Below are positions 1 through 38,722 of a DNA stretch of 39,990 nucleotides, one piece after another. The position numbers were made by a program, and so were the translations under genes. Every line of letters starts with the position of its first letter. Positions within the stretch are counted from its first letter, which is position 1. The notes beneath the pieces were generated by a model that saw only the letters and a list, made by a program, of their open reading frames with translations, was not told where the DNA came from and made no database searches. Origin of the DNA: a virus. The stretch lies in IMG/VR virus record IMGVR_UViG_3300021962_000249, positions 1 through 39,990 of that record, one strand, 5' to 3'.

Positions 1-2305
1 CACTGATACCTGTTGAGACTGGCAAGCCAGTACAGTTGGTCAATGTACCTGATGAAGGAGTACCCAACACAGGTGCTGTCAAGGTGGGTGATGTCAGTGT
101 CTTGTTGGTGAGCGTTTCTGTTCCAGCTAATGTAGCAAAATCGGCATCACTCAATGCAGTATTGAATTGAGCGATGGTACCTGCCAAGGTGTTGCTGGAA
201 AGATTGACTGTTTTATTTGTTAATGTTTCTGTCCCAGCCAGAGTTGCCAAAGTACCAGATGTTGGCAACGTGACTGTAGTGGTTCCTGTGGTAGTTACTG
301 TGGTGCTATGAGCACCTGATGTGGCAAAAGTAGAACCATTAGCCAGTGTCAATGTGGCAGCAGTACCAGGGTCTGTGATGGTGACCTTGTTCACTGTAGT
401 GGCGGTGGCCGCACCCAACACAGGTGTTACCAGCGTTGGAGTATTGGCAAACACTAGTGCGCCAGTGCCAGTTTCATCAGTGACAGCAGATGCCAGATTT
501 GCTGAACTTGGAGTACCCAAGAACGTGGCAACACCTGTGCCTAGCCCAGACACACCTGTGCTGATTGGAAGACCTGTGGCGTTGGTCAAGGTCACACTGG
601 AAGGAGTACCTAGAGCAGGTGTTACTAGTGTGGGACTGTTGGCAAATACCAAGGCTCCGGATCCTGTTTCATCAGTGACAGCAGATGCTAAATTTGCTGA
701 ACTTGGGGTACCTAGGAACGTGGCAACACCTGTACCCAATGATGTAATGCCAGTACCACCATTGGCCACAGGAAGTGTGCCAGTGACACCTGTAGTAAGG
801 GATACATTGGTGATGGTGTTGTTACTGCCATTGATGGTCTTGTTGGTCAGTGTTTGTGTGGCAGTGGCACCTACAATGGCTTGATAATTGGTACCATCTT
901 CTGTGTATTGCCAGATGTCAGATGTTTCATTCCAACGCAACAACACATTGGTGTCATCACCACGTTCCACTTCAATGCCCGCATTTTCAGTAGCACCACC
1001 TGTGGCGTTGCTGTTCAATGTGATGACATTATCTGCCAATTGAATGGTTTCTGTGTTCACAGATGTTGTGGTGCCTGAAACAGTCAAGTTACCAGCAATG
1101 GTAACGTTGGCACCAGACAAACTGATGGCTGTGGTGGATGATGAACCTGACTTGATAATCATCTCACCTGCTGATTGTGTGAAACGACCAAACTCCACTT
1201 CATTGTCTTGCAGAATGATATCAGCTCCATCCGCATCCAACACGATGTCTGTGGCGGCATCCAACATGATGCCAGCAGCACTATCAATTTCCGCGATGAC
1301 GGGTGTGGTGATGGTTGGAGATGTTAATGTCTTGTTGGTAAGAGTTTCAGCACCTGCCAACGTGGCGAAATCAGCATCAGTAACAGCGGCATTGAATTGA
1401 GAGATGCTGCCGGTCACGGTGTTGCTTCCTAACGCAATGCTCTTGTTGGTGAGTGTGTCTGTGGTGTCTCGACCCACCAATGTGGTGGTGGCAGTAGGAA
1501 GTGTCACAGTACCAGTGTTGCTGATGGTGCTGATGACAGGTGTGGTTAGTGTCTTGTTGGTAAATGTTTCTGCGCCTGCCAGCGTAGCCAATGTGCCAGA
1601 TGTTGGCAGTGTGACATTGGTGGAAGCTGTAGAGGTCAAGGTCAGAGAATAGGCACCAGATGTTGCCAAAGTGGAGCCATCTGCCAAAGCCAATGTGGCT
1701 GACGTGGCAGGTGCTGTGAATGCTACTTTGTTCAATGAGGTGGCAGATGCCACACCCAACACAGGTGTCACAAGGGTTGGACTGGTGGCAAATACTAAGG
1801 AACCTGAGCCTGTTTCATCAGTAACGGCAGCAGCAAGATTGCTAGAGCTAGGTGTGGCAAGAAATGTGGCAACACCGCTACCTAGTCCTGAAATACCTGT
1901 GGCAACAGGAAGACCTGTGGCGTTGGTGAGTGTGGCGGCTGATGGAGTACCTAGATTCGGTGTGGTAAGAACTGGGCTGGTAAGTGTTTTGTTGGTGAGT
2001 GTTTCAGAACCAGCTAATGTAGCAAAATCACCGTCTGTCAAGGCGGTGTTGAACTGTGCAATAGTACCAGAGACGGTGTTACTACCTAATGCAATAGTTT
2101 TGTTGGTGAGTGTGGTGCTACTGGAGCCAGTGATGGCAGATGTGTTGGACAAGTCAGCCTTGGCCAGCTCGAAACCACCTGCTGTTGTTCCATCATGAAC
2201 ACGTAGCGTATCCACCGTGGTATCTACGGTTATTTCACCAACTGCACCGGTGAAGTTGTTGTTTTGAGTTGTGGTACCACGGCGAAACTGTACTTGTGTT
2301 GGCAT
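1..2305 (-). CDS. Tail fibre-like protein with Mtd_N-type N-terminus (3' end outside window)
   Basis: The reading frame starts at ATG 2305, behind a good Shine-Dalgarno (AGGAG, about 8 nt upstream), and is open to the left edge, so the C-terminus is missing. The first ~45 residues ([14 protein letters not shown]..., then [14 protein letters not shown]) match the pattern of the Major tropism determinant N-terminal domain, which attaches fibres to a baseplate. The rest is a low-complexity Thr/Ser/Ala/Gly/Val fibre built from repeats such as LTNKTL, GTPSS.NL and [14 protein letters not shown] block near the middle ([19 protein letters not shown]) is also present in the two other fibres of this cluster. 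Role: host recognition or fibre shaft, by family. The receptor-binding tip is not visible. The fibre call is firm; the specific partner is inferred. Confidence 0.85.
421..1884 (-). repeat. Direct repeats inside the fibre gene (421-543, 616-738, 1762-1884)
   Basis: Three ~123-bp segments encode the same ~41-residue block ([27 protein letters not shown]). Copies 421-543 and 616-738 are nearly identical at the DNA level and are offset by 195 bp (65 codons). The third is more diverged. They keep the frame and are part of the fibre shaft. Confidence 0.8.
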
Positions 2306-2323
2306 CTATATTCTCCTAAAACA

Positions 2324-2680
2324 TTAAGTCAATACGCCTAAATCTTTTTCGCCTATGGCACCTAGAGGTGTCGTTAGACAATCAAAACTTGCGCTGATGG
2401 CTTGACCAAATGCATCTTGTGTCAAAGCGGTAAGATTTCCATAGTCACCAGTTGGAAACACAATGGTAGCTGTGGCAGCTTCCAACGCCGCCAAACGATC
2501 CAAATCTTCTTGCGTGATTCCAGTTGAATAGTTTGCTACAACAACAATGTTATCATTAGAATCACGAACGTAGATTTTTTGGTCAGCTGTGTTTAACGCA
2601 ACTTCACCTACTGCCAGATGTGTGGTTGTAGGTAGGGCACTAGCTGTTTCACTACGTTTAATCTTGATTACTGATGCCAT
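2324..2680 (-). CDS. Small virion/tail-fibre-associated protein, Mtd_N-like
   Basis: A 118-residue protein starting MASVIKIKRSETASALPTTT. The segments HLAVGEVALNTADQKIYVRD resemble the fibre-attachment N-terminus seen in neighbouring fibres (IKRS...GE...D..I.V.D). After a short helical stretch (ITQEDLDRLAALEAATA) the C-terminal half resembles nothing I recognise. Its start overlaps the end of the upstream 59-aa gene by 13 bp, and no strong ribosome site is visible, which suggests translational coupling. The role is probably a short fibre or adaptor; this is inferred from the N-terminus and the neighbours. Confidence 0.75.
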   Translation of the reverse strand: MASVIKIKRSETASALPTTTHLAVGEVALNTADQKIYVRDSNDNIVVVANYSTGITQEDLDRLAALEAATATIVFPTGDYGNLTALTQDAFGQAISASFDCLTTPLGAIGEKDLGVLT

Positions 2681-2847
2681 TGGCTATGTTCTTGGTCAGG
2701 TGATTGCGAAAGTTGTTTCTTTAATTCTTCAATTTCTTCCTGTGCCAGAGCAAGTTGAGTAGTCAACATGGTTTTTTCCATTGTCAACCCTTTCACTTGC
2801 TCGGCCAAGGATGCAATATATTTGTTTAAAAACTTCTGTGAATCCAT
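2668..2847 (-). CDS. Small coiled-coil protein, unknown function
   Basis: A 59-residue protein. I place the start at ATG 2847 (MDSQKFLNKYIASL) because GAGG lies 6 nt upstream; an in-frame TTG at 2859 has no such site. Residues ~15-50 form a heptad-rich, charged helix (TMEKTML..QLALAQEEIEELKKQL), as in small trimerising phage accessory proteins. It sits between two fibre genes and overlaps the next one. A late-promoter-like AATAAATA (2861-2868) lies immediately upstream. I do not recognise a family. Confidence 0.6.
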   Translation of the reverse strand: MDSQKFLNKYIASLAEQVKGLTMEKTMLTTQLALAQEEIEELKKQLSQSPDQEHSQWHQ

Positions 2848-2860
2848 AACGAACCTCAAT

Positions 2861-2868
2861 TATTTATT
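2861..2868 (-). promoter_or_regulatory. Weak late-promoter-like AATAAATA
   Basis: Seven of eight matches to the octamer, 13 nt before ATG 2847. The spacing is short, so it is only suggestive. Confidence 0.35.
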
Positions 2869-4561
2869 AGTATGTTCCACCGTCAATCACATTGGTCCAG
2901 GCAGGTGTGCCTGAGTTGGAATACAAGAAGTATCCATTGGTACCAGCAGCAGTTGCTTGTACAGCACTTGTTCCGTTACCGTACAACACACCGTTAGTTG
3001 TGAATGTTGAAGCACCGGTACCACCGTTTGCCACCGTGATGGCAGATGCTAGACTAGAAACAGTGCCACCTTCAAGATTGGCAACCAAGGTACCAATGCT
3101 GTAACCAGTACCTGATGTGTTTACTGTTGTAGTAGGTTCTGATTGCAAGTCTTTGAACAACTTGAACTTGTCTGAATCAGATGCATCCTTGAACAAACCT
3201 GCATACTTTGTGGTGGCAGATGCAACATATTCCGTGTAAAATCCTAGATCCACAGAGTTAGCTGAGTTGTCAGTTCCCAACTTCAACAACACATCATCTA
3301 CTGACAATGTGGTGCTGTTGATGATGGTTGATGAACCGTTCACAGTCAAATTACCTGCTACTGTTACATCAGCGCCTGAAAGTGTGATGGCAGTGGCGCC
3401 AGATGAAGATTTGATATCGTTTCCTGTAACTTGCAAATCACCTGCTACAGTGACATCAGCACCTGAAAGTGTCAATGCTGTAGCTGATGAAGATTTGATG
3501 TCGTTGCCTGTTACTGTCAAATCACCTGCGATAGAAACATCTGCACTTGACAAAGTAATGGCAGTTGTGCCACCTGAAGATTTGATGTCATTGCCACCCA
3601 CAGTCAAATCACCCACCAATGCCACGTCATTGGTCAATGCGATGGTGACAGCAGCAGTTTCTGAACCTGAACCTGATACTGAGATTTGATTGGTGGTGCC
3701 TGCCACAGTGGCCACATAGTTACCTGTAGTATCAGTTCCCAATGCCACTGAGTCAGCTGCAATGGTCACTACACCTGCTTCGGTTACTGTGATGTCACCT
3801 GAGAATCCTGCATATACATAGTCAGCCATATTTTCTGCTGTAATCTTACGATTGGCTGAAGCAGAAGCATCATATACAATGAATTCATCATCATCTGCCA
3901 ATGTGGTAACTGCTGTGCTGCCATTGACATCCAACTTGCTACCTTGTACAGAATTGATGGTGACCGCACCTGTTGACACAGTGAAGTTGGTGCTGTTGAA
4001 TGATGCCACGCCCTTGTTGGTGGTAGTGGCATCTTCAGCGGCGATGGTCACCACATTGTCTGTGATGGTGGTGTCAATGCCTTCGCCGCCTGTGAATGTC
4101 AATGTTTGGCCAGTACTGAACGTGTCTGAGCCTGTGTCACCTGCAATGGTGAATGATGATGAGGCAGGTGAGGCAAATGACAACACACCTGAACCGTTGG
4201 TTGTAAGAATTTGTCCATTGCTACCATCTGCAGCTGGCAATTGCAGTGTGAAGTTGGAAGCGATGGTTGCTGCTGCTTTCAATGTGATGTTATTGGATCC
4301 ATCAGCATCTTTCAATACGATGGCATCACCTACGGTGCCGTCACGTGGATCCAAGAAAGAATCCACAGTGTTGGTGTAGTACTTACCACCCACTTTGTCA
4401 ATGACTGCTGTTGTACCATCTGATTGTACAGATTCAATGTATAGAATTGCACCAGCGCCATTACCAGAGCGGTCTTCAGCATAGGCTAGTTCGCCTTCTG
4501 CCAGGTCCCCTGTGGTTGGAGCGGTAGAACCTGTGGACCGCTTGATTTGAATTACTGTCAT
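2867..4561 (-). CDS. Tail fibre-like repeat protein, 564 aa
   Basis: Starts at ATG 4561 with AGGAG 8-9 nt upstream. The N-terminus (MTVIQIKRSTGSTAPTTGDLAEGELAYAED...) is again of the fibre-attachment type. The shaft is Thr/Ser/Ala/Val-rich with three tandem ~30-residue blocks (GADVTVAGDLQVTGNDIKSS type, around residues 310-410), then an INSTTLSVDDVLLKLG segment, and ends in GNGTSAVQATAAGTNGYFLY... The last residues are NVIDGGTY, a terminus nearly identical to that of the next protein upstream (NIDGGTF). By family this is a trimeric tail or side fibre component. The receptor is unknown. Confidence 0.85.
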   Translation of the reverse strand: MTVIQIKRSTGSTAPTTGDLAEGELAYAEDRSGNGAGAILYIESVQSDGTTAVIDKVGGKYYTNTVDSFLDPRDGTVGDAIVLKDADGSNNITLKAAATIASNFTLQLPAADGSNGQILTTNGSGVLSFASPASSSFTIAGDTGSDTFSTGQTLTFTGGEGIDTTITDNVVTIAAEDATTTNKGVASFNSTNFTVSTGAVTINSVQGSKLDVNGSTAVTTLADDDEFIVYDASASANRKITAENMADYVYAGFSGDITVTEAGVVTIAADSVALGTDTTGNYVATVAGTTNQISVSGSGSETAAVTIALTNDVALVGDLTVGGNDIKSSGGTTAITLSSADVSIAGDLTVTGNDIKSSSATALTLSGADVTVAGDLQVTGNDIKSSSGATAITLSGADVTVAGNLTVNGSSTIINSTTLSVDDVLLKLGTDNSANSVDLGFYTEYVASATTKYAGLFKDASDSDKFKLFKDLQSEPTTTVNTSGTGYSIGTLVANLEGGTVSSLASAITVANGGTGASTFTTNGVLYGNGTSAVQATAAGTNGYFLYSNSGTPAWTNVIDGGTY

Positions 4562-7736: not shown

Positions 7737-9767
7737 TTATTTAGTGCAGTTGCAATTCTTCTTCACTTCATCTAATTCCAACTTTAAGGCCTTGATGGCT
7801 TCTACTAATACTGGAATTAACTTCTCATACTTCACGGTCAAGTATTGTTCATCAATAGGTGCAGGTGCTACAGCTTCAGGAAGAACAATTTGCACTTCTT
7901 GAGCGCTAACACCCACTTGCATTTTGTCATTGTTGTAACCTAGTGACTTGGCCACTTCATTTTCTGTGAAGTAGTATCCATTCAATGAAGTTACTTTTTC
8001 TAGTGCATTTGGGATGGTGCCATGGAAGTTCTTCAAACGAGCGTCAGAATAGAACGCTGTGATTTCATTGGTGGCACGAATTTCACCTGCTGTACCTGAG
8101 CCTGCTGTACCCACACCCAATGAATTGAATTGAACATTGGAGCTGGTTGCTACAGCTTGTCCGATGCTAATGGTGACTGCACCTGTGGCACCAGACACAG
8201 TGACACCCGTGCCTGCCACATTGCTGGTAACACCTGAGTTGGTGATGGTGACGGCGCCTGTGCCACCTGACACACTGATGCCTGATCCTGCTACAGCAGA
8301 GGTTACACCTGCGTTAGTCAATGTCACAGAACCACCAAGTGATACTGAACCACCACCTGACATACCAGTTCCTGCTGTGACTGTTACTGCACTGTTCACC
8401 AAGCCAGCATTTGGAAGGCCTGTGCAATTGGTCAATGTACCTGATGAAGGAGTACCTAGAGCAGGAGTGGTGAGTGTTGGGCTTGATGCCAACACAACAG
8501 AACCTGAACCTGTGGTACCGTTGCTCAAGTTGGAAGCAGCAATTTGTGAACCGTTGATGAGATAGTTCTTGCCTGTTGGGATGTTGATGTGTTCTGAGCT
8601 GAGCCAAGAATTAGTACCGTTGTTATAGGCCCAGGTCTTGTTACCTGCAGTTGTGGCTTCCACAGTTAGACCTGCGCCATCAGCACCTGCGTTTGTGGCA
8701 TTACCCTTGGCTACTGTCAAGTTCAAATCATCAATGTCTACAGTGGTGCTGTTCACTGTTGTGGTGGTACCATTCACAGTCAAATCACCTGAGATGGTGA
8801 CTGCATTACCGCTCAATGAGATGGCAACTGCACCTGTTGAGGACTTGATGTCATTACCTGTTACTGTCAAATCACCCTTCACTTCCACATCAGAAGCGTT
8901 CAATGTTAGAGCTGTGGCGCCAGTTGAGGACTTAATGTCATTGCCATTCACAGTAACATCACCTGCTAATGTAACATCAGCACCTGCCATGGTGATGGCA
9001 GTGGTGGCGCTTGAACTGGAAGCAATAACTAGTTGACCACCTGATTGAATCAACCGACCAAATTCTGTACCACCATCCTTCAGGATGATGTCTGAACCAT
9101 CAGCATCAAGAATGATGTCAGCAGCTGCATCAAGAGTGAAATCTGCTGATGCATTCACTTGTGCAATGGTGGGTGTGGTGATGGTTGGACTGCCATTGAA
9201 CACCAACAAACCAGTACCAGTTTCATCTGATACTGCTGCCAACATTTGAGCTGATGTGGCAGTCAAAGTGTTGTTGGCAAGATTGATGGTCTTGTTGGTC
9301 AATGTTTGTGTGACATCAGTACCCACCATGGTGGTGGTGGCATCTGGGATGGTCACTGTTCGGTCAGCTGTGGGATCCACTACTGTTAGAAGTGTTTCAA
9401 AGGCATCTGCTGTGGCACCTTCAAAATACAAACCATTGGTAACAATGGCGGCATCTAGTGTTTTGTTGGTGAGTGTTTGTGCACCATCAAGTGTTGTAAG
9501 TGTTCTTGTGGCTGAGCCTGTGTAGTATTTGATATCACCGGCATTGTTCCAAACGTCACCTGATACAGGTGATGAAGGATCAGCACTACCAGCTACAACA
9601 CGAATACTAGCGGTAGAAGAACTACTTGTGACAGTAGTAAACTTACCTGTCATGGTAGTAGAACCGTCTTTTTCTACCTTGTCGGTGTTCAAATTACTGA
9701 AGTTGTTGTCTACTTCAGTATTTGTGAGTGGAGTACCTTTTACGTTTCTTAAGGTTAGTGTGGACAT
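7737..9767 (-). CDS. Tail fibre with C-terminal S74 self-cleaving chaperone
   Basis: A 676-residue fibre. Start ATG 9767 has AGAGGA 6 nt upstream. The shaft is repetitive and Thr/Ser/Gly-rich, including the VTVNGNDIKSSTGATALTL-type blocks shared with the other fibres (residues ~230-330). A glycine-rich segment (VTAGTGMSGGGSVSLGG) precedes the chaperone. The last ~103 residues are a peptidase S74 intramolecular chaperone: YSDARLK places the Ser-Lys dyad at S574 and K579, followed by GYYFTENEVAKSLGY, VGVSAQEVQ and a terminal heptad helix. By family this domain drives trimerisation, then cuts itself off just before the serine. This is therefore a trimeric, autoprocessed fibre or spike. Confidence 0.92.
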   Translation of the reverse strand: MSTLTLRNVKGTPLTNTEVDNNFSNLNTDKVEKDGSTTMTGKFTTVTSSSSTASIRVVAGSADPSSPVSGDVWNNAGDIKYYTGSATRTLTTLDGAQTLTNKTLDAAIVTNGLYFEGATADAFETLLTVVDPTADRTVTIPDATTTMVGTDVTQTLTNKTINLANNTLTATSAQMLAAVSDETGTGLLVFNGSPTITTPTIAQVNASADFTLDAAADIILDADGSDIILKDGGTEFGRLIQSGGQLVIASSSSATTAITMAGADVTLAGDVTVNGNDIKSSTGATALTLNASDVEVKGDLTVTGNDIKSSTGAVAISLSGNAVTISGDLTVNGTTTTVNSTTVDIDDLNLTVAKGNATNAGADGAGLTVEATTAGNKTWAYNNGTNSWLSSEHINIPTGKNYLINGSQIAASNLSNGTTGSGSVVLASSPTLTTPALGTPSSGTLTNCTGLPNAGLVNSAVTVTAGTGMSGGGSVSLGGSVTLTNAGVTSAVAGSGISVSGGTGAVTITNSGVTSNVAGTGVTVSGATGAVTISIGQAVATSSNVQFNSLGVGTAGSGTAGEIRATNEITAFYSDARLKNFHGTIPNALEKVTSLNGYYFTENEVAKSLGYNNDKMQVGVSAQEVQIVLPEAVAPAPIDEQYLTVKYEKLIPVLVEAIKALKLELDEVKKNCNCTK

Positions 9768-30406: not shown

Positions 30407-30979
30407 ATGCCAACTAATCCCATTCAACAACTTCGTGACCGAGAAACACCCACCAGTTCCTTCCGGTGGTATCAGGACATGATTCGTAAGTTGGGTATGA
30501 CCAATATTCAACCTCAGAAGGTGATGAGAAGTGATATTGGTGAGTTTGTGACCAACGTAGTAATGGGTAGTATGTATCTGTTCATGTATGACCCCAAGAT
30601 GTCAGCTAAACTTCCATATTATGATACAGTACCAGTGGTGATAATCTTCAGAAAAGTACCAGGCGGCTTCTACGGATTGAACATGCATTATCTTCCACCA
30701 TTGTTTAGAATGAAGTTGTTGGACAGAATGATGGAAATGGTGGATGATGAAAGTCTTGGTGAAGATGCCAGAATGATGGTGACCTGGAAGTTGTTAAGTA
30801 ACGTGGCAAGATATCCAGGATCCAATGTGGCAGTGAAACGGTATTTGTATGAGCAAATTGGATCCAGAATCATGAGAATCTATCCCAAAGATTGGAGAAA
30901 GACCATCATGCTGCCCATTGACAACTTTGAGAAGGCTTCACGGAATCAAGTATTCAACGACGCACGGAGTAACATCTAA
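30407..30979 (+). CDS. Conserved T4-like virion protein (gp2-type DNA end protector is one candidate)
   Basis: 190 residues from ATG 30407 (MPTNPIQQL). A TTG at 30371 in frame would add 12 residues; neither has a good Shine-Dalgarno. The signature YLFMYDPKMSAKLPYYDTVP...GGFYGLNMHYLPPLFRMKLLDRM is one I recognise as highly conserved in marine T4-like phages next to gp4. These proteins have sometimes been called DNA end protector, but I am not sure of that name. Genes 2 and 4 adjoin in T4, which gives weak support. The stop overlaps gene 54 as TAATG. Confidence 0.8.
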   Translation: MPTNPIQQLRDRETPTSSFRWYQDMIRKLGMTNIQPQKVMRSDIGEFVTNVVMGSMYLFMYDPKMSAKLPYYDTVPVVIIFRKVPGGFYGLNMHYLPPLFRMKLLDRMMEMVDDESLGEDARMMVTWKLLSNVARYPGSNVAVKRYLYEQIGSRIMRIYPKDWRKTIMLPIDNFEKASRNQVFNDARSNI

Positions 30980-31938
30980 TGACAGAACCAAAAAGATTAG
31001 AACAACAGAACATCACTGCGCCTGTAGATATTCCTAGTCTACAACAATTCCTTGCCTTCGTTAAACAGAACAATCTAGCAAGACAAGAAAGATTCTTTGT
31101 CAGTTTTCCCAATGATTTGCTAGGATCCAACAACAACGACTTGTCATTCTTATGCCACCAGGCTTCTTTACCTGGAAAAAACATAGGTGTAAGAACTTTG
31201 CGTATCAACGGCCTAGACCGTCAATTTGCTCAAACAGCAGATTACACCAATGACATCACACTGGAATTTCTAATGGACACAGATTTTCGTCCAAGAGCCA
31301 TGGTGGAAGATTGGATGGCACGCTGTGTGGAAAGATACAACACCACGGATAGCAATGAAGTGGGATACTATTCTGATTATGTACGTGACTTGAGCATCTA
31401 CGCATTGATACCTGCAGGCATTCCTGGAGAAGCATTGTTCAATTGGAGTCCTACACAAGCTGACTTGGGATTAAGAAACAAAGCCACATTGGGTAGAGGT
31501 CCATTGAACACTGCTGTGGATAAACTGATGTTGCGCAGTAAACGCCTTGTAGATAACAAGTTCACAAAGTTGAAAAGTCAAGCATTTGGTGCTGTGTCTA
31601 GTATTGCTGCACCATTATTGGAACTAACCACAGATGCTGAACAAATTGCCTACCGTGTGAAGCTAGTGGATGCCTGGCCCAAAAGCATGAACATTGTGCC
31701 ACTAGGATTTGATGCTGTTGGCGTGATGAGAATGAATGTGACATTTACATTTCATCATTGGACATCCAGCTTCTCCAAAGTGGAGCTATCTGGCCAAGAC
31801 ATGGCTGATAGTGCCACAGCCGCCGTGAGTAAGTATGCCAAGAAGTTCACAGACAAACTACCTAATGTAGACGCTACAAATTTAGGAGCTGATTTGAGAA
31901 GTAAAGCCACAAGTTTAACTAGACGATTTGGTCGTTAA
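30979..31938 (+). CDS. 54: Baseplate tail tube initiator gp54
   Basis: 319 residues, almost exactly the T4 gp54 length (about 320). Segments include RQERFFVSFPNDLLG, FLCHQASLPGKNIGVRTLRINGLDRQFAQTADYTNDITLEFLMD and the terminal WPKSMNIVPLGFDAVGVMRMNVTFTFHHW, which fit the tail-tube fold of gp54/gp19 (beta-sandwich with a late strand in the order seen in tube proteins). gp54 sits on gp48 and starts polymerisation of the tube. It could be confused with the tube protein gp19, but that is shorter (~163) and the neighbours are baseplate genes. Confidence 0.85.
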   Translation: MTEPKRLEQQNITAPVDIPSLQQFLAFVKQNNLARQERFFVSFPNDLLGSNNNDLSFLCHQASLPGKNIGVRTLRINGLDRQFAQTADYTNDITLEFLMDTDFRPRAMVEDWMARCVERYNTTDSNEVGYYSDYVRDLSIYALIPAGIPGEALFNWSPTQADLGLRNKATLGRGPLNTAVDKLMLRSKRLVDNKFTKLKSQAFGAVSSIAAPLLELTTDAEQIAYRVKLVDAWPKSMNIVPLGFDAVGVMRMNVTFTFHHWTSSFSKVELSGQDMADSATAAVSKYAKKFTDKLPNVDATNLGADLRSKATSLTRRFGR

Positions 31939-31950
31939 CCAGGAGAAATT

Positions 31951-32652
31951 ATGAAGATACCTATGGTGAAAGTGCCGACATTCACAACAACATTACCTGT
32001 GTCAGGTGATAAAGTGGAATTTCGTCCTTTCTTGGTGAAAGAAGAAAAATTATTGTTGTTAGCTAACGACAGTGAAGATAATGAAGATGTGATAAATGCC
32101 ATACAGGACCTTGTTCGAGGATGCACATTTGAAAAACTGAATCTGAACAAGTACTGTCTGGCAGACATACAATGGTTGTTCTTACAAATTCGAAGCAAGT
32201 CCATTGGTAAAGACATTGATATGTACATGATTTGTGGAGAATGTGACCATAAGCAACTAAAGACCTTGGATGTCACAGATTTTCATACTAAATCCACACA
32301 AAAAATTGACCATGTGATTGCCATTGATGATAATGTGAAAGTTGAACTTCGTTATCCTTCATTGAAGCATTATATGGATTTGTTTGAAGAACAAGATGAA
32401 AACAAAATCTATGATGTAGTGATTGATTGCATTGATAAAATCTACAGTGATGATGAAGTGTTTGTGAACATTGGAGAAACCAATCAAGAACTTCGTGAGT
32501 TCGTGGACAATTTGACAGCTGAACAGTTTGAACCATTTGAACAGTTCTTCTTGAATATGCCTACATTGGTGAAAGAAATAGAGTTTCAATGTGTGAAGTG
32601 TGGAAAAGACAACACTGTAATCGTGGATAGTTTACGACATTTTTTCGGCTAA
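31951..32652 (+). CDS. 26: gp26-type baseplate hub assembly / tail chaperone, zero-frame product
   Basis: 233 residues (T4 gp26 is about 208). Start ATG 31951 follows AGGAG. The N-terminal part (VPTFTTTLPVSGDKVEFRPFLVKEEKLLLLA, then CLADIQWLFLQIRSKSIGKDI) is the T4_baseplate (gp26) pattern. Cysteine pairs CGEC (~98) and CVKCGK (~216) look like a split zinc ribbon. It ends ...RHFFG with TAA at 32650-32652, six bases after a T_TTT_TTC heptamer. The -1 frame opens only at 32631 and runs to 32816, so a second, longer product of 288 residues is predicted. It lies directly before the tape measure gene, the classic place for frameshifted tail chaperones. Confidence 0.88.
   Translation: MKIPMVKVPTFTTTLPVSGDKVEFRPFLVKEEKLLLLANDSEDNEDVINAIQDLVRGCTFEKLNLNKYCLADIQWLFLQIRSKSIGKDIDMYMICGECDHKQLKTLDVTDFHTKSTQKIDHVIAIDDNVKVELRYPSLKHYMDLFEEQDENKIYDVVIDCIDKIYSDDEVFVNIGETNQELREFVDNLTAEQFEPFEQFFLNMPTLVKEIEFQCVKCGKDNTVIVDSLRHFFG
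32640..32646 (+). promoter_or_regulatory. -1 programmed frameshift heptamer T_TTT_TTC
   Basis: In the gp26-type frame the codons read CAT TTT TTC GGC TAA. Tandem slippage by one base on T_TTT_TTC continues into the overlapping -1 frame. The overlap window is only 22 nt: the last -1 stop is TAG 32628-32630 and the zero-frame stop is 32650-32652. Confidence 0.75.
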
Positions 32653-32816
32653 ATCTTTCTCACGACAACATGGTCAATTTTTACAAAACCAATTTCTTGT
32701 TGATGCACATTCACAAGTACTCGTTGACAGAAATTGAGAACATGATGCCTTGGGAAAGAGAAACATACGTAGGATTGTTAGTACAGTACTTGGAAAAGAA
32801 AAACAATGAACAATAG
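32646..32816 (+). CDS. -1 frame extension of the gp26-type protein (56 residues)
   Basis: After the slip the reading begins CGG CTA AAT and gives RLNLSHDNMVNFYKTNF, then LMHIHKYSLTEIENMMPWE, ending at TAG 32814. The segment NFYKTNFLLM..HKYSLTEIENMMPWERE is a well-formed, amphipathic helical piece with conserved-looking residues, typical of the second half of such tail chaperones. An independent start at ATG 32670 (48 residues) is possible but has no Shine-Dalgarno. The fused product would be 288 residues. The role is chaperoning the tape measure or hub assembly, by analogy with lambda G/GT. Confidence 0.8.
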   Translation, partial: RLNLSHDNMVNFYKTNFLLMHIHKYSLTEIENMMPWERETYVGLLVQYLEKKNNEQ

Positions 32817-32824
32817 GTACCAAC

Positions 32825-34630
32825 ATGGCAGCTAGAAAGACATCTGGAAGAAAGCCAAGGAGAGAAAAGACCGAGATGTTGAAAAACATCAAGGATAGTA
32901 TGTCCGTGGAAAAGACACGGCTGGATCCTGAAGAACAAGCAATCTCTAACATCGAAGTTGCAAGCAACATTGCCAAAGTGGCTGTGGTGTTGGAGAATCT
33001 TTCCAATGACCAGACAGATGTTTTGAAAGACATTTTGAAGGCTTTGGAAAACATTCCAGAAAATGTTGGTGAATCAATTGAACAAAGTGAAAAAATATTA
33101 GAAAAACTAGTGAAAGCTATTGTGAAGTTGGAAAAAGATTTAGAAGCTGCTGAAAAGAAAGGAGATAAAGAGAAAGCTGAGGCACTTCGTGGAAGTATTT
33201 CCACACTACGCGGTGAAGCAGATAAAGCCATTCAAGGTGGTGCATTAGCAGCTGGCCCACAAACCATGGGTGAAGTTTTCGCCAATATGTTGGGTGTTTC
33301 ACCCAGAGAACTACGAGGAGCTGGCGGAGGGGTGGGAGGATTCTTCAAGGCATTCGCCGGCGGAATGAAAAATAACACATTAGATGCCTTCACTCCTCGA
33401 TTGAACAAACCACCCACACTAGAAGAAACTTTAGAAAGAGAAAGAAACAGAGGCAAGATTTCTGATACACTAGGTGAAGCCAGAAAAGCTGATGTTGCAG
33501 AAAGAATGAAGCTAGTACCAGAACACCTTCGTGTGAAGGTGGATCCTGAAACTGGAATGCGATATCGTACAGGAACCAAAGGTAACAGAATCAATGAGTT
33601 TGAAGAATCTGGTGCCAAGAATTCTAGATTTGAATTTGGTACACTGGGCGGTCTAGTTGATGAAGAAACAGGTGAAGCCTATGACTACAAGACCAAGGGG
33701 TCTATGAGACCTACCAGAGAGGGCTTCGGGGATGCTGATGGTGTGGATGAAGCCACAGACACCGGTACCCAAGAAATTCTGGATAAGATGGATGATATCA
33801 ATGACACATTACAAGAAGTGGTCAGTGCCATTGAAGGCGTTGAAACTGGGGGCGGTGGAGGTCTAGACATCCCCATCCCCCGCCGCCTCTTCCCCCGAGG
33901 AGGAAAACCTCCTAAAGGAGCTGGCAGCGTAGCAGATGATGTAGCCAAAGCTGGAGCTAGCAGTGTTGATGATGCGGCCAGAGCAGCAGGGAGCGTGTCC
34001 CGTGGTAGCAGATTGTTAGGAGGAGCTGGCAGATTGTTAGGAAGATTGGCAACACCACTAACAATTGCTGCAGGTGCTTATGAAGGCTACACAGGATATC
34101 AACAAGCCAAGGCACTAGAAGAATCAGGTGCCATCACGACAGAAGAAGCCAACAAACAAAAAGGATCTGCCGTAGGTGGTGCTGTAGTAGGAACAGGGGG
34201 AGCGTTGGCAGGAGCTGCAGCTGGCGCCGCCATTGGTTCAGTAGTACCTGTGGTGGGTACTGCTATTGGTGGGTTAGTTGGTGGCTTGGTGGGATATTTT
34301 GGAGGTAAAGCCGCAGGTGAAGTGGCGGGAAGTGCCATCGGAGGAGCAGTTACAAGTGCAGGTACAGCTTCCATGCAACCTGGAGCAAATCCTGCAGCAG
34401 CTGTAGCCACAACACAAACCAGATCCAGAACAGCAGCTGCCTCTGCATTATCCAATGGTGCTGCAGCTTCACCAGCAACTCAACCTATCATCAACAACAT
34501 TGATAATTCCAGCCGAGTGAATGCACCACCCGCCACACAGCAACAACCATCTTCAGTAGTGGTGACAGTTCGGGACACATCCTCCAGTCACATACGTTTC
34601 AATAATAGAAGAATGGCTAGAGTAATGTAA
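32825..34630 (+). CDS. Tail tape measure / hub protein (gp29-type)
   Basis: 601 residues, very near T4 gp29 (about 590), and the gene lies directly behind the chaperone gene. Start ATG 32825 has AGGT 6 nt upstream. Residues ~30-140 are a charged helix region (EKILEKLVKAIVKLEKDLEAAEKKGDKEKAEALRG). The centre contains a glycine-rich linker (GGGGGLDIPIP). Residues ~455-525 are a Gly/Ala zipper (VVGTGGALAGAAAGAAIG, IGGLVGGLVGYFGG), the sort of membrane-active segment found in tape measures. The C-terminus (SHIRFNNRRMARV) is basic. In T4 gp29 sets tail length. I have no direct family motif, so identity is from length, position and composition. Confidence 0.75.
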   Translation: MAARKTSGRKPRREKTEMLKNIKDSMSVEKTRLDPEEQAISNIEVASNIAKVAVVLENLSNDQTDVLKDILKALENIPENVGESIEQSEKILEKLVKAIVKLEKDLEAAEKKGDKEKAEALRGSISTLRGEADKAIQGGALAAGPQTMGEVFANMLGVSPRELRGAGGGVGGFFKAFAGGMKNNTLDAFTPRLNKPPTLEETLERERNRGKISDTLGEARKADVAERMKLVPEHLRVKVDPETGMRYRTGTKGNRINEFEESGAKNSRFEFGTLGGLVDEETGEAYDYKTKGSMRPTREGFGDADGVDEATDTGTQEILDKMDDINDTLQEVVSAIEGVETGGGGGLDIPIPRRLFPRGGKPPKGAGSVADDVAKAGASSVDDAARAAGSVSRGSRLLGGAGRLLGRLATPLTIAAGAYEGYTGYQQAKALEESGAITTEEANKQKGSAVGGAVVGTGGALAGAAAGAAIGSVVPVVGTAIGGLVGGLVGYFGGKAAGEVAGSAIGGAVTSAGTASMQPGANPAAAVATTQTRSRTAAASALSNGAAASPATQPIINNIDNSSRVNAPPATQQQPSSVVVTVRDTSSSHIRFNNRRMARVM

Positions 34631-37216: not shown

Positions 37217-38722
37217 TTAGAAACCAGTACAGCTACTTCCTCCGCAACCACAAGTACCTTCCTTGAACTGTTCGCTACACTCTGGAGGACAGAACTGCGT
37301 ACATGCATCCAAACGTACAATCACAGTACCATCACTTTGCTTGCTGTAATACACTTCAGGTTGTGTCATGTCCACTTCATCCTCTGACACATCATAGACA
37401 CCAAACTTCAACACCATGAGATACAACTGTTCATTATCAGAATTCAATGCTTCCATGAATTGACGATACTTACCCACTTGCAAATCTGCTGGGGGAGTCA
37501 CAGTCAACTCGGTGCCATCATATGTCACCCAAGGAAGTTGATTTCTATAGTGAGTACCAAACAACACATCATCAATGCTCACTGCCACACCAGGTGCTGC
37601 AATTTGCACTGGGATGGTGATGGAGGTGCCACGCTTCACAGGGATGTAGGTGTTGGCAGGGTCAGGTGAAAGAAACAGATTGTCATGTGAGATGGCTTGT
37701 ACCAACAGATTAGGTGTGGTGCCATAGATGGTTTCATTTCTGAACAATCTGTCTGCCAAACCAGCAGACAAGAAATTGTTTTGAATTTGTGATGCTGTTT
37801 GTCCAGGGGAGTTATGAATGTACTGACACACTAGAGCGCTAGTTATGGCAGCAGCATATGATGTTCCTGAGCCTGAGGTGATGGTGCCATCCAAGGCTGC
37901 AATTTCCACATCAATACCAGGAGCAGTGATGTCCACTTCAGGACCCCAGTTGCTACCAGTACCAGGACCCCAACCAATCACACGGTCATAGGCATCAGAA
38001 GCTGCAACACCAATCACAGTATCTAAACCGACAGGTGAAAAGTTGTCAGCTGCCTCCACTGTGTTACCTGCAGAAGCCACAACAACTAGACCTGACAGTT
38101 GTAATTCACGAATCTTTTCATCTAGAATTTGACTCTTAGCCACGTGCCATGAACAATTCACAACCTTCACATCATCAGGTGTTTCCAAATGGTCAGTCTT
38201 TACAGCATTGAAAGCAGCCAAGAGTTGGCTGATAGGAATGGCTACACCTGATTGAATTTTCACATTCTTAATTGTGGCATCTCTGGCAGCACCTAATTGA
38301 CCACCTACAATCAAACTGGCGATGGCAGTACCGTGGCCAATAGTGTCATTGAATGTTTCATCGTATGAATGCAAGTTCAGAATGTTTCTGCCATGCAGTT
38401 CTGGGTGTGTGATATCAATACCAGAATCTAGGACATACACCACAACACCAGCACCTTCATTCTTAGGTGTGTACACTGTGCGCATTGGCAAATCGGTGCT
38501 GTTCACACGATTTCTTTGCCAGGCACTCAACGTGGCGGTGACAGATGTATCCTCTTCTGTCAGGGTGACTTGTGAAAACTGTGAGAAATCTACAGAATCC
38601 GAAGTGGTCACATTCATGACATTCAATGATTCATAGATTGCATTCACTGTGATGCCAGCTGCTTCCAACTCTGTTTGCAATGCTGCTGCATCACCAGTAT
38701 AAACTAGATTGTAAAGGGCCAT
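37217..38722 (-). CDS. Subtilisin-like (S8) serine protease with Cys-rich tail
   Basis: 501 residues. Catalytic triad by motif: D99 in VYVLDSGID, H130 in GHGTAIASL and S288 in GTSYAAAITSALV, with the oxyanion N220 in VASAGN. The N-terminal ~85 residues (LYNLVYTGDAAALQTELEAAGI) look like an I9-type propeptide. There is no signal peptide, so it works in the cell or virion. After the catalytic domain comes a beta domain and a six-cysteine tail (CPPEC, CGCGG, C). Start ATG 38722 has AGGAG, and a late promoter lies 33 nt upstream, pointing to a late, perhaps virion or maturation, protease. T4's own prohead protease gp21 is an unrelated family. Confidence 0.9.
   Translation of the reverse strand: MALYNLVYTGDAAALQTELEAAGITVNAIYESLNVMNVTTSDSVDFSQFSQVTLTEEDTSVTATLSAWQRNRVNSTDLPMRTVYTPKNEGAGVVVYVLDSGIDITHPELHGRNILNLHSYDETFNDTIGHGTAIASLIVGGQLGAARDATIKNVKIQSGVAIPISQLLAAFNAVKTDHLETPDDVKVVNCSWHVAKSQILDEKIRELQLSGLVVVASAGNTVEAADNFSPVGLDTVIGVAASDAYDRVIGWGPGTGSNWGPEVDITAPGIDVEIAALDGTITSGSGTSYAAAITSALVCQYIHNSPGQTASQIQNNFLSAGLADRLFRNETIYGTTPNLLVQAISHDNLFLSPDPANTYIPVKRGTSITIPVQIAAPGVAVSIDDVLFGTHYRNQLPWVTYDGTELTVTPPADLQVGKYRQFMEALNSDNEQLYLMVLKFGVYDVSEDEVDMTQPEVYYSKQSDGTVIVRLDACTQFCPPECSEQFKEGTCGCGGSSCTGF

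Follow-up and report, generated by a model that had tools for sequence, protein, structure and literature searches.

Locus architecture and the gp26-type gene

The window, the whole stretch of 39,990 nucleotides analysed here, is an IMG/VR virus record and represents a new, uncultivated marine member of the T4-like group discussed below. Its tail region contains a gp26-type gene followed by an overlapping extension in the -1 frame, flanked by tail-tube-like and tape-measure-like genes:

30979..31938, + strand: tail-tube-like gene (gp54/tube family), upstream context (phrog_45 tail tube, 5.8e-30)
31951..32652, + strand: gp26-type gene, TAC-N short form, 233 aa (PF12322, phrog_150, structural model)
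32640..32646, + strand: putative slippery heptamer T_TTT_TTC, 3 nt 5' of the gp26 stop (direct reading, conservation)
32646..32816, + strand: predicted -1 extension, 56 residues plus stop, gp51-type, TAC-NC C-terminal domain (phrog_634, phrog_150)
32825..34630, + strand: 601-aa gene, probable gp29-type tape measure (phrog_794, position, length)

The 233-aa open reading frame (ORF), preceded by AGGAG, matches PF12322 T4_baseplate (7.9e-52, residues 9-232) and phrog_150 baseplate hub (5.2e-53), and is, judged by these family matches, a homologue of T4 gp26; the closest relative found is 59% identical. Upstream of it lie gp2-like and tail-tube-like genes. The next ORF 3' of it is, on moderate evidence, tape-measure-like: the phrog_794 tail length tape measure family matches the 601-aa product at 8e-18, over its glycine-rich part only, and its length is close to that of T4 gp29. 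Gene order, length and these weak family matches make 32825-34630 a probable gp29-type tape measure gene.

The window gp26 contains two CxxC pairs (CGEC and CVKC, at about residues 95-98 and 216-219), a hint that gp26-family proteins may have a zinc site; cysteines occupy similar positions in T4 gp26 and gp51. On the minus strand, long ORFs at 30954-31208 and 32674-33231 run antisense to the tail genes and have the look of chance ORFs. Also on the minus strand, and recognized by eye, are a 501-aa ORF (37217-38722) with a subtilisin-like serine protease pattern (GHGTAIASLI, GTSYAA) and highly repetitive tail-fibre-like ORFs with many TLTNKT-type motifs (1-4561 and 7737-9767).

We compared the predicted fold of the window gp26 (model pLDDT 89.6) with known structures. 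Foldseek found nothing significant in the PDB for this model, nor for that of gp51. Structural re-alignment placed the HK97 chaperone 2ob9 at the top for gp26, with a Z score of 7.2 (below 8) and a Foldseek E value of 1.2, aligning 83 residues at an rmsd of 4.3 across residues 1-85 of the model, followed by a Vibrio PICI-like protein at Z 5.3 and by remaining rows at Z of 4.3 or less. Among the Foldseek candidates re-aligned, the HK97 tail assembly chaperone is the closest fold to the N-terminal domain of the window gp26, a comparison of a predicted model that agrees with a tail assembly chaperone and is not proof of one. For the gp51 model, re-alignment, which was confined to Foldseek's own candidates, did not list the HK97 chaperone, a miss that says nothing against the fold.

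The slippery site and its conservation

The 3' end of the gp26-type ORF reads CGA CAT TTT TTC GGC TAA and thus includes T_TTT_TTC, a canonical -1 heptamer of the X_XXY_YYZ type, in the correct phase. In the -1 frame a stop codon lies immediately 5' of 32631, and from 32631 the frame stays open to a TAG at 32814-32816. Normal reading yields 233 aa, and a tandem slip on TTT TTC is predicted to yield a 288-residue fusion ending in ...RHFF-RLNLSHDNMVNFYKTNFLLMHIHKYSLTEIENMMPWERETYVGLLVQYLEKKNNEQ. Searched alone, the extension hits phrog_634, the gp51 family of baseplate hub assembly catalysts (1.1e-23), and aligns with the C-terminal end of phrog_150 (2.1e-8); 617 phage records match it in a tblastn search. 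Its first ATG, at 32670, has no Shine-Dalgarno (SD) sequence upstream (TCTTTCTCACGA). The first-pass annotation, made from the letters of the window, had claimed the same heptamer in CAT TTT TTC GGC TAA, a -1 frame open from 32631 to 32816, products of 233 and 288 residues, and an extension with no SD of its own; direct reading and the tandem-slip translation bear out each of these points.

Accessory signals are less uniform. The window has no predicted stem-loop 3' of the slip site (z 0.21), which counts against frameshifting; in sampled relatives, folding of the downstream stretch is on average more stable, at z -1.7 versus -0.26 for a control stretch. A clear SD-like element upstream of the heptamer is likewise absent in the window; such an element occurs 4-20 nt 5' of the heptamer in 148 of 224 relatives, a raw count that we set aside as evidence. 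To our knowledge, neither a stimulatory structure nor an upstream SD-like element is needed in every known case of -1 frameshifting.

Relatives were gathered from IMG/VR by the gp26 protein alone, so the heptamer was not selected for; duplicates were removed and four reference phages added. A scan of viral contigs with the single gp26 sequence gave no match, and alignments were required. The slippery T-run heptamer lay within 6 bases of the stop in all of the first 80 loci, and T_TTT_TT[C/T/A] was present 0-9 bases 5' of the stop in all 223 distinct frameshift-type loci, in 174 of them as T_TTT_TTC exactly 3 bases away. Every locus that is not cut off by the end of its contig has a -1 frame that runs on for 57-73 codons and carries a common motif. 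The homologue comparison proposed in the first-pass annotation recovered both the heptamer and the -1 extension in these frameshift-type loci. The four records in the set that lack the heptamer belong to T4-subgroup or Ackermannviridae-type phages. Ten reference junctions, including the window and ranging from a cyanophage to Sinorhizobium, Vibrio, Stenotrophomonas and Acidovorax phages, were all slippery (eight T_TTT_TTC, one T_TTT_TTT and one T_TTT_TTG).

The heptamer coincides with a terminal Phe-Phe pair, at which T_TTT was observed in 224/224 genes versus about 66/224 expected from their own codon use; of 221 Phe-Phe pairs elsewhere in these genes, only 8 are slippery. On these counts, conservation of the site is not explained by conserved phenylalanines alone. 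Moreover, at -1 codons 4-10 past the slip, 56% of single-base codon changes are synonymous in the -1 frame, whereas the other two frames reach 9% and 11%; in the 50 loci where this interval contains neither ATG nor GTG nor TTG, the figures are 61% versus 23% and 14%; the underlying pair counts are not independent, and the contrast between frames is large. By this measure, the stretch directly past the slip evolves as -1-frame coding sequence.

Probable frameshifting and the alternatives

We consider it highly probable that the gp26-type gene of the window encodes a tail assembly chaperone of the T4-like kind and is expressed by programmed -1 frameshifting. Matches to PF12322 and phrog_634 support assignment of the gp26-type gene and its -1 extension to the T4-like gp26/gp51 chaperones. 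The first-pass annotation had already inferred that a hub gene here is a frameshifted tail assembly chaperone, a proposal now supported by the heptamer, the constrained -1 frame and the gp51-type homology, and in agreement with the tape-measure-like neighbour and with the T4 26/51 pair described below. Most ribosomes would terminate at 32652, producing the 233-aa short form, and a minority would slip by -1 on T_TTT_TTC to produce the 288-aa long form, whose added C-terminal domain would be the counterpart of the gp51 end; both the slippage and its rate we infer rather than observe directly.

Under a rival reading, translation would reinitiate at an ATG past the gp26 stop and release a free gp51-like peptide. 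In its favour, many records, among them several in GenBank, list the extension as a gene of its own, and the ATG at 32670 lies inside the extension of the window. This ATG lacks an SD, however; in 93 of 214 relatives the first 12 codons of the -1 frame contain no ATG, that frame shows constraint 5' of any start, and T4 makes the extension domain only within a gp26-like fusion. SD-like motifs accompany the first possible start codon in 2 of 214 relatives, and with so few of them and a constrained -1 frame, independent initiation fits the data poorly; we regard a separate small gene as very improbable. Somewhat less improbable, although still unlikely, is a variant compatible with frameshifting in which both a fusion and a free extension peptide are made, the latter from an internal start: 120 of 214 relatives have their first ATG no more than 12 codons from the slip site, but the same scarcity of SD-like motifs at potential start codons (2 of 214) speaks against it.

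The first-pass annotation had itself named a sequencing error at the T run as grounds for rejecting its proposal. Homopolymers are generally error-prone, and a sequencing or assembly error could in principle have split one continuous gene. The arrangement recurs, however, in isolate genomes and in independently assembled contigs by the hundred, and because independent contigs share it, such an error is excluded for practical purposes, its probability being negligible.

The frameshift reading places the locus beside lambda G/GT and P2 E/E', which likewise comprise a short form and a -1 extended form, encoded immediately before the tape measure gene as is probably the case here. The window gp26 differs from G/GT in being larger (233 aa) and in its CxxC pairs, and no sequence family in common was detected; its slip site, T_TTT_TTC, also differs from that of lambda, G_GGA_AAG. 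By analogy with the G/GT model (reviewed in PMC5009743), the abundant short form would coat the tape measure protein, the extension of the rare long form would recruit tail tube subunits, and both forms would leave the particle.

The two-gene T4 arrangement, the Ackermannviridae variant and significance

T4 carries 26 and 51 as two distinct genes, transcribed divergently. T4 gp26 (208 aa) consists of the PF12322 domain alone, and gp51 (249 aa) of the PF12322 domain plus an extension, matching phrog_150 over almost its full length and also phrog_634; because of this domain content, gp26 corresponds to the short form and gp51 to the long form, the same domain plan as that of the two forms predicted for the window. 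T4 thus has two genes, no frameshift and a lost slippery site, whereas the window has one gene with the heptamer. In a T4-subgroup sample of 34 loci, the T-rich heptamer was found in none of the 33 gp26 genes with a readable 3' end, and GLKEFF is mostly encoded there with GAR TTC TTT. A maximum-likelihood tree gathers the 26 sequences into one group and the 51 sequences into another, the two adjoining each other and apart from the frameshift type (99/97), with gp51 on a long branch and a midpoint root only. This topology is consistent with a single duplication within the T4 subgroup having given rise to the 26/51 pair. Other Straboviridae keep the frameshift arrangement, namely Schizotequatrovirus V05, Ceceduovirus CC2 and Nanhuvirus LPCS28. 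T4 gp51 is required yet absent from the particle (PMC3004832).

The gp26 relatives in Ackermannviridae (21 distinct loci) have no T_TTT_TTN heptamer. All 21 carry a T_TTC or T_TTT tetramer at the gp26 end, 20 of them as xTT TTC NNN stop, and the -1 frame is open from the tetramer into a homologous extension (...DLLSYF...MPWHLDLLTE...), with no start codon 5' of the conserved part of the extension in most loci. A separate, coupled gene, considered for two Ackermannviridae-type phages, was set aside since most members have no start codon there. In these phages the slip site may be a reduced one, or the extension may be expressed by some other route. That one family has arrived at three solutions, a T_TTT_TTN frameshift, two genes as in T4 and a non-heptamer frameshift in Ackermannviridae, is a tentative proposal that we rate as rather doubtful. 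The extension is unannotated in most of the Ackermannviridae records examined (S8, PP35, VPALA, MAM1). A literature search by title and abstract returned no paper on point for the Ackermannviridae non-heptamer site, and an extension reached from a bare tetramer may be less known than the T4-like frameshift.

Tail assembly chaperone genes of this frameshifted kind were identified in T4-like phages by Vladimirov et al. in 2022, and the window locus adds one member. The abstract of that study reportedly states that several T4-like groups conserve frameshifting, T4 itself using 26 and 51. Two papers cite this work: a passage of the report on phage Adele (PMC12846349), citing Vladimirov, Gautam and Davidson (Virology 2022), refers to poly-T slippery sites in T4-like TAC-N genes, and a passage of the PRFect paper (PMC10885494), citing Vladimirov et al. 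2022, states that some T4-like phages carry separate short and fused longer genes in place of a frameshift. As given in these passages, the poly-T sites and split genes of T4-like phages match our findings. A 2016 review (PMC5009743) still lists T4 as an exception.

The -1 extension is present and wholly unannotated in the records of Acidovorax ACP17, Aeromonas CC2, Cronobacter LPCS28 and Ochrobactrum ORM_20. The broader implications, made in essence already in 2022, concern how such ORFs are read. Small gp51-type ORFs, which in marine T4-like phages by the hundred are overlooked or carry inconsistent annotations, would gain a function as the C-terminal domain of a long chaperone rather than as separate genes. 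The T4 comparison also shows how two separate genes can take the place of a frameshift product, and it supports reading the long-puzzling T4 hub 'catalyst' gp51 as the long form of the chaperone.
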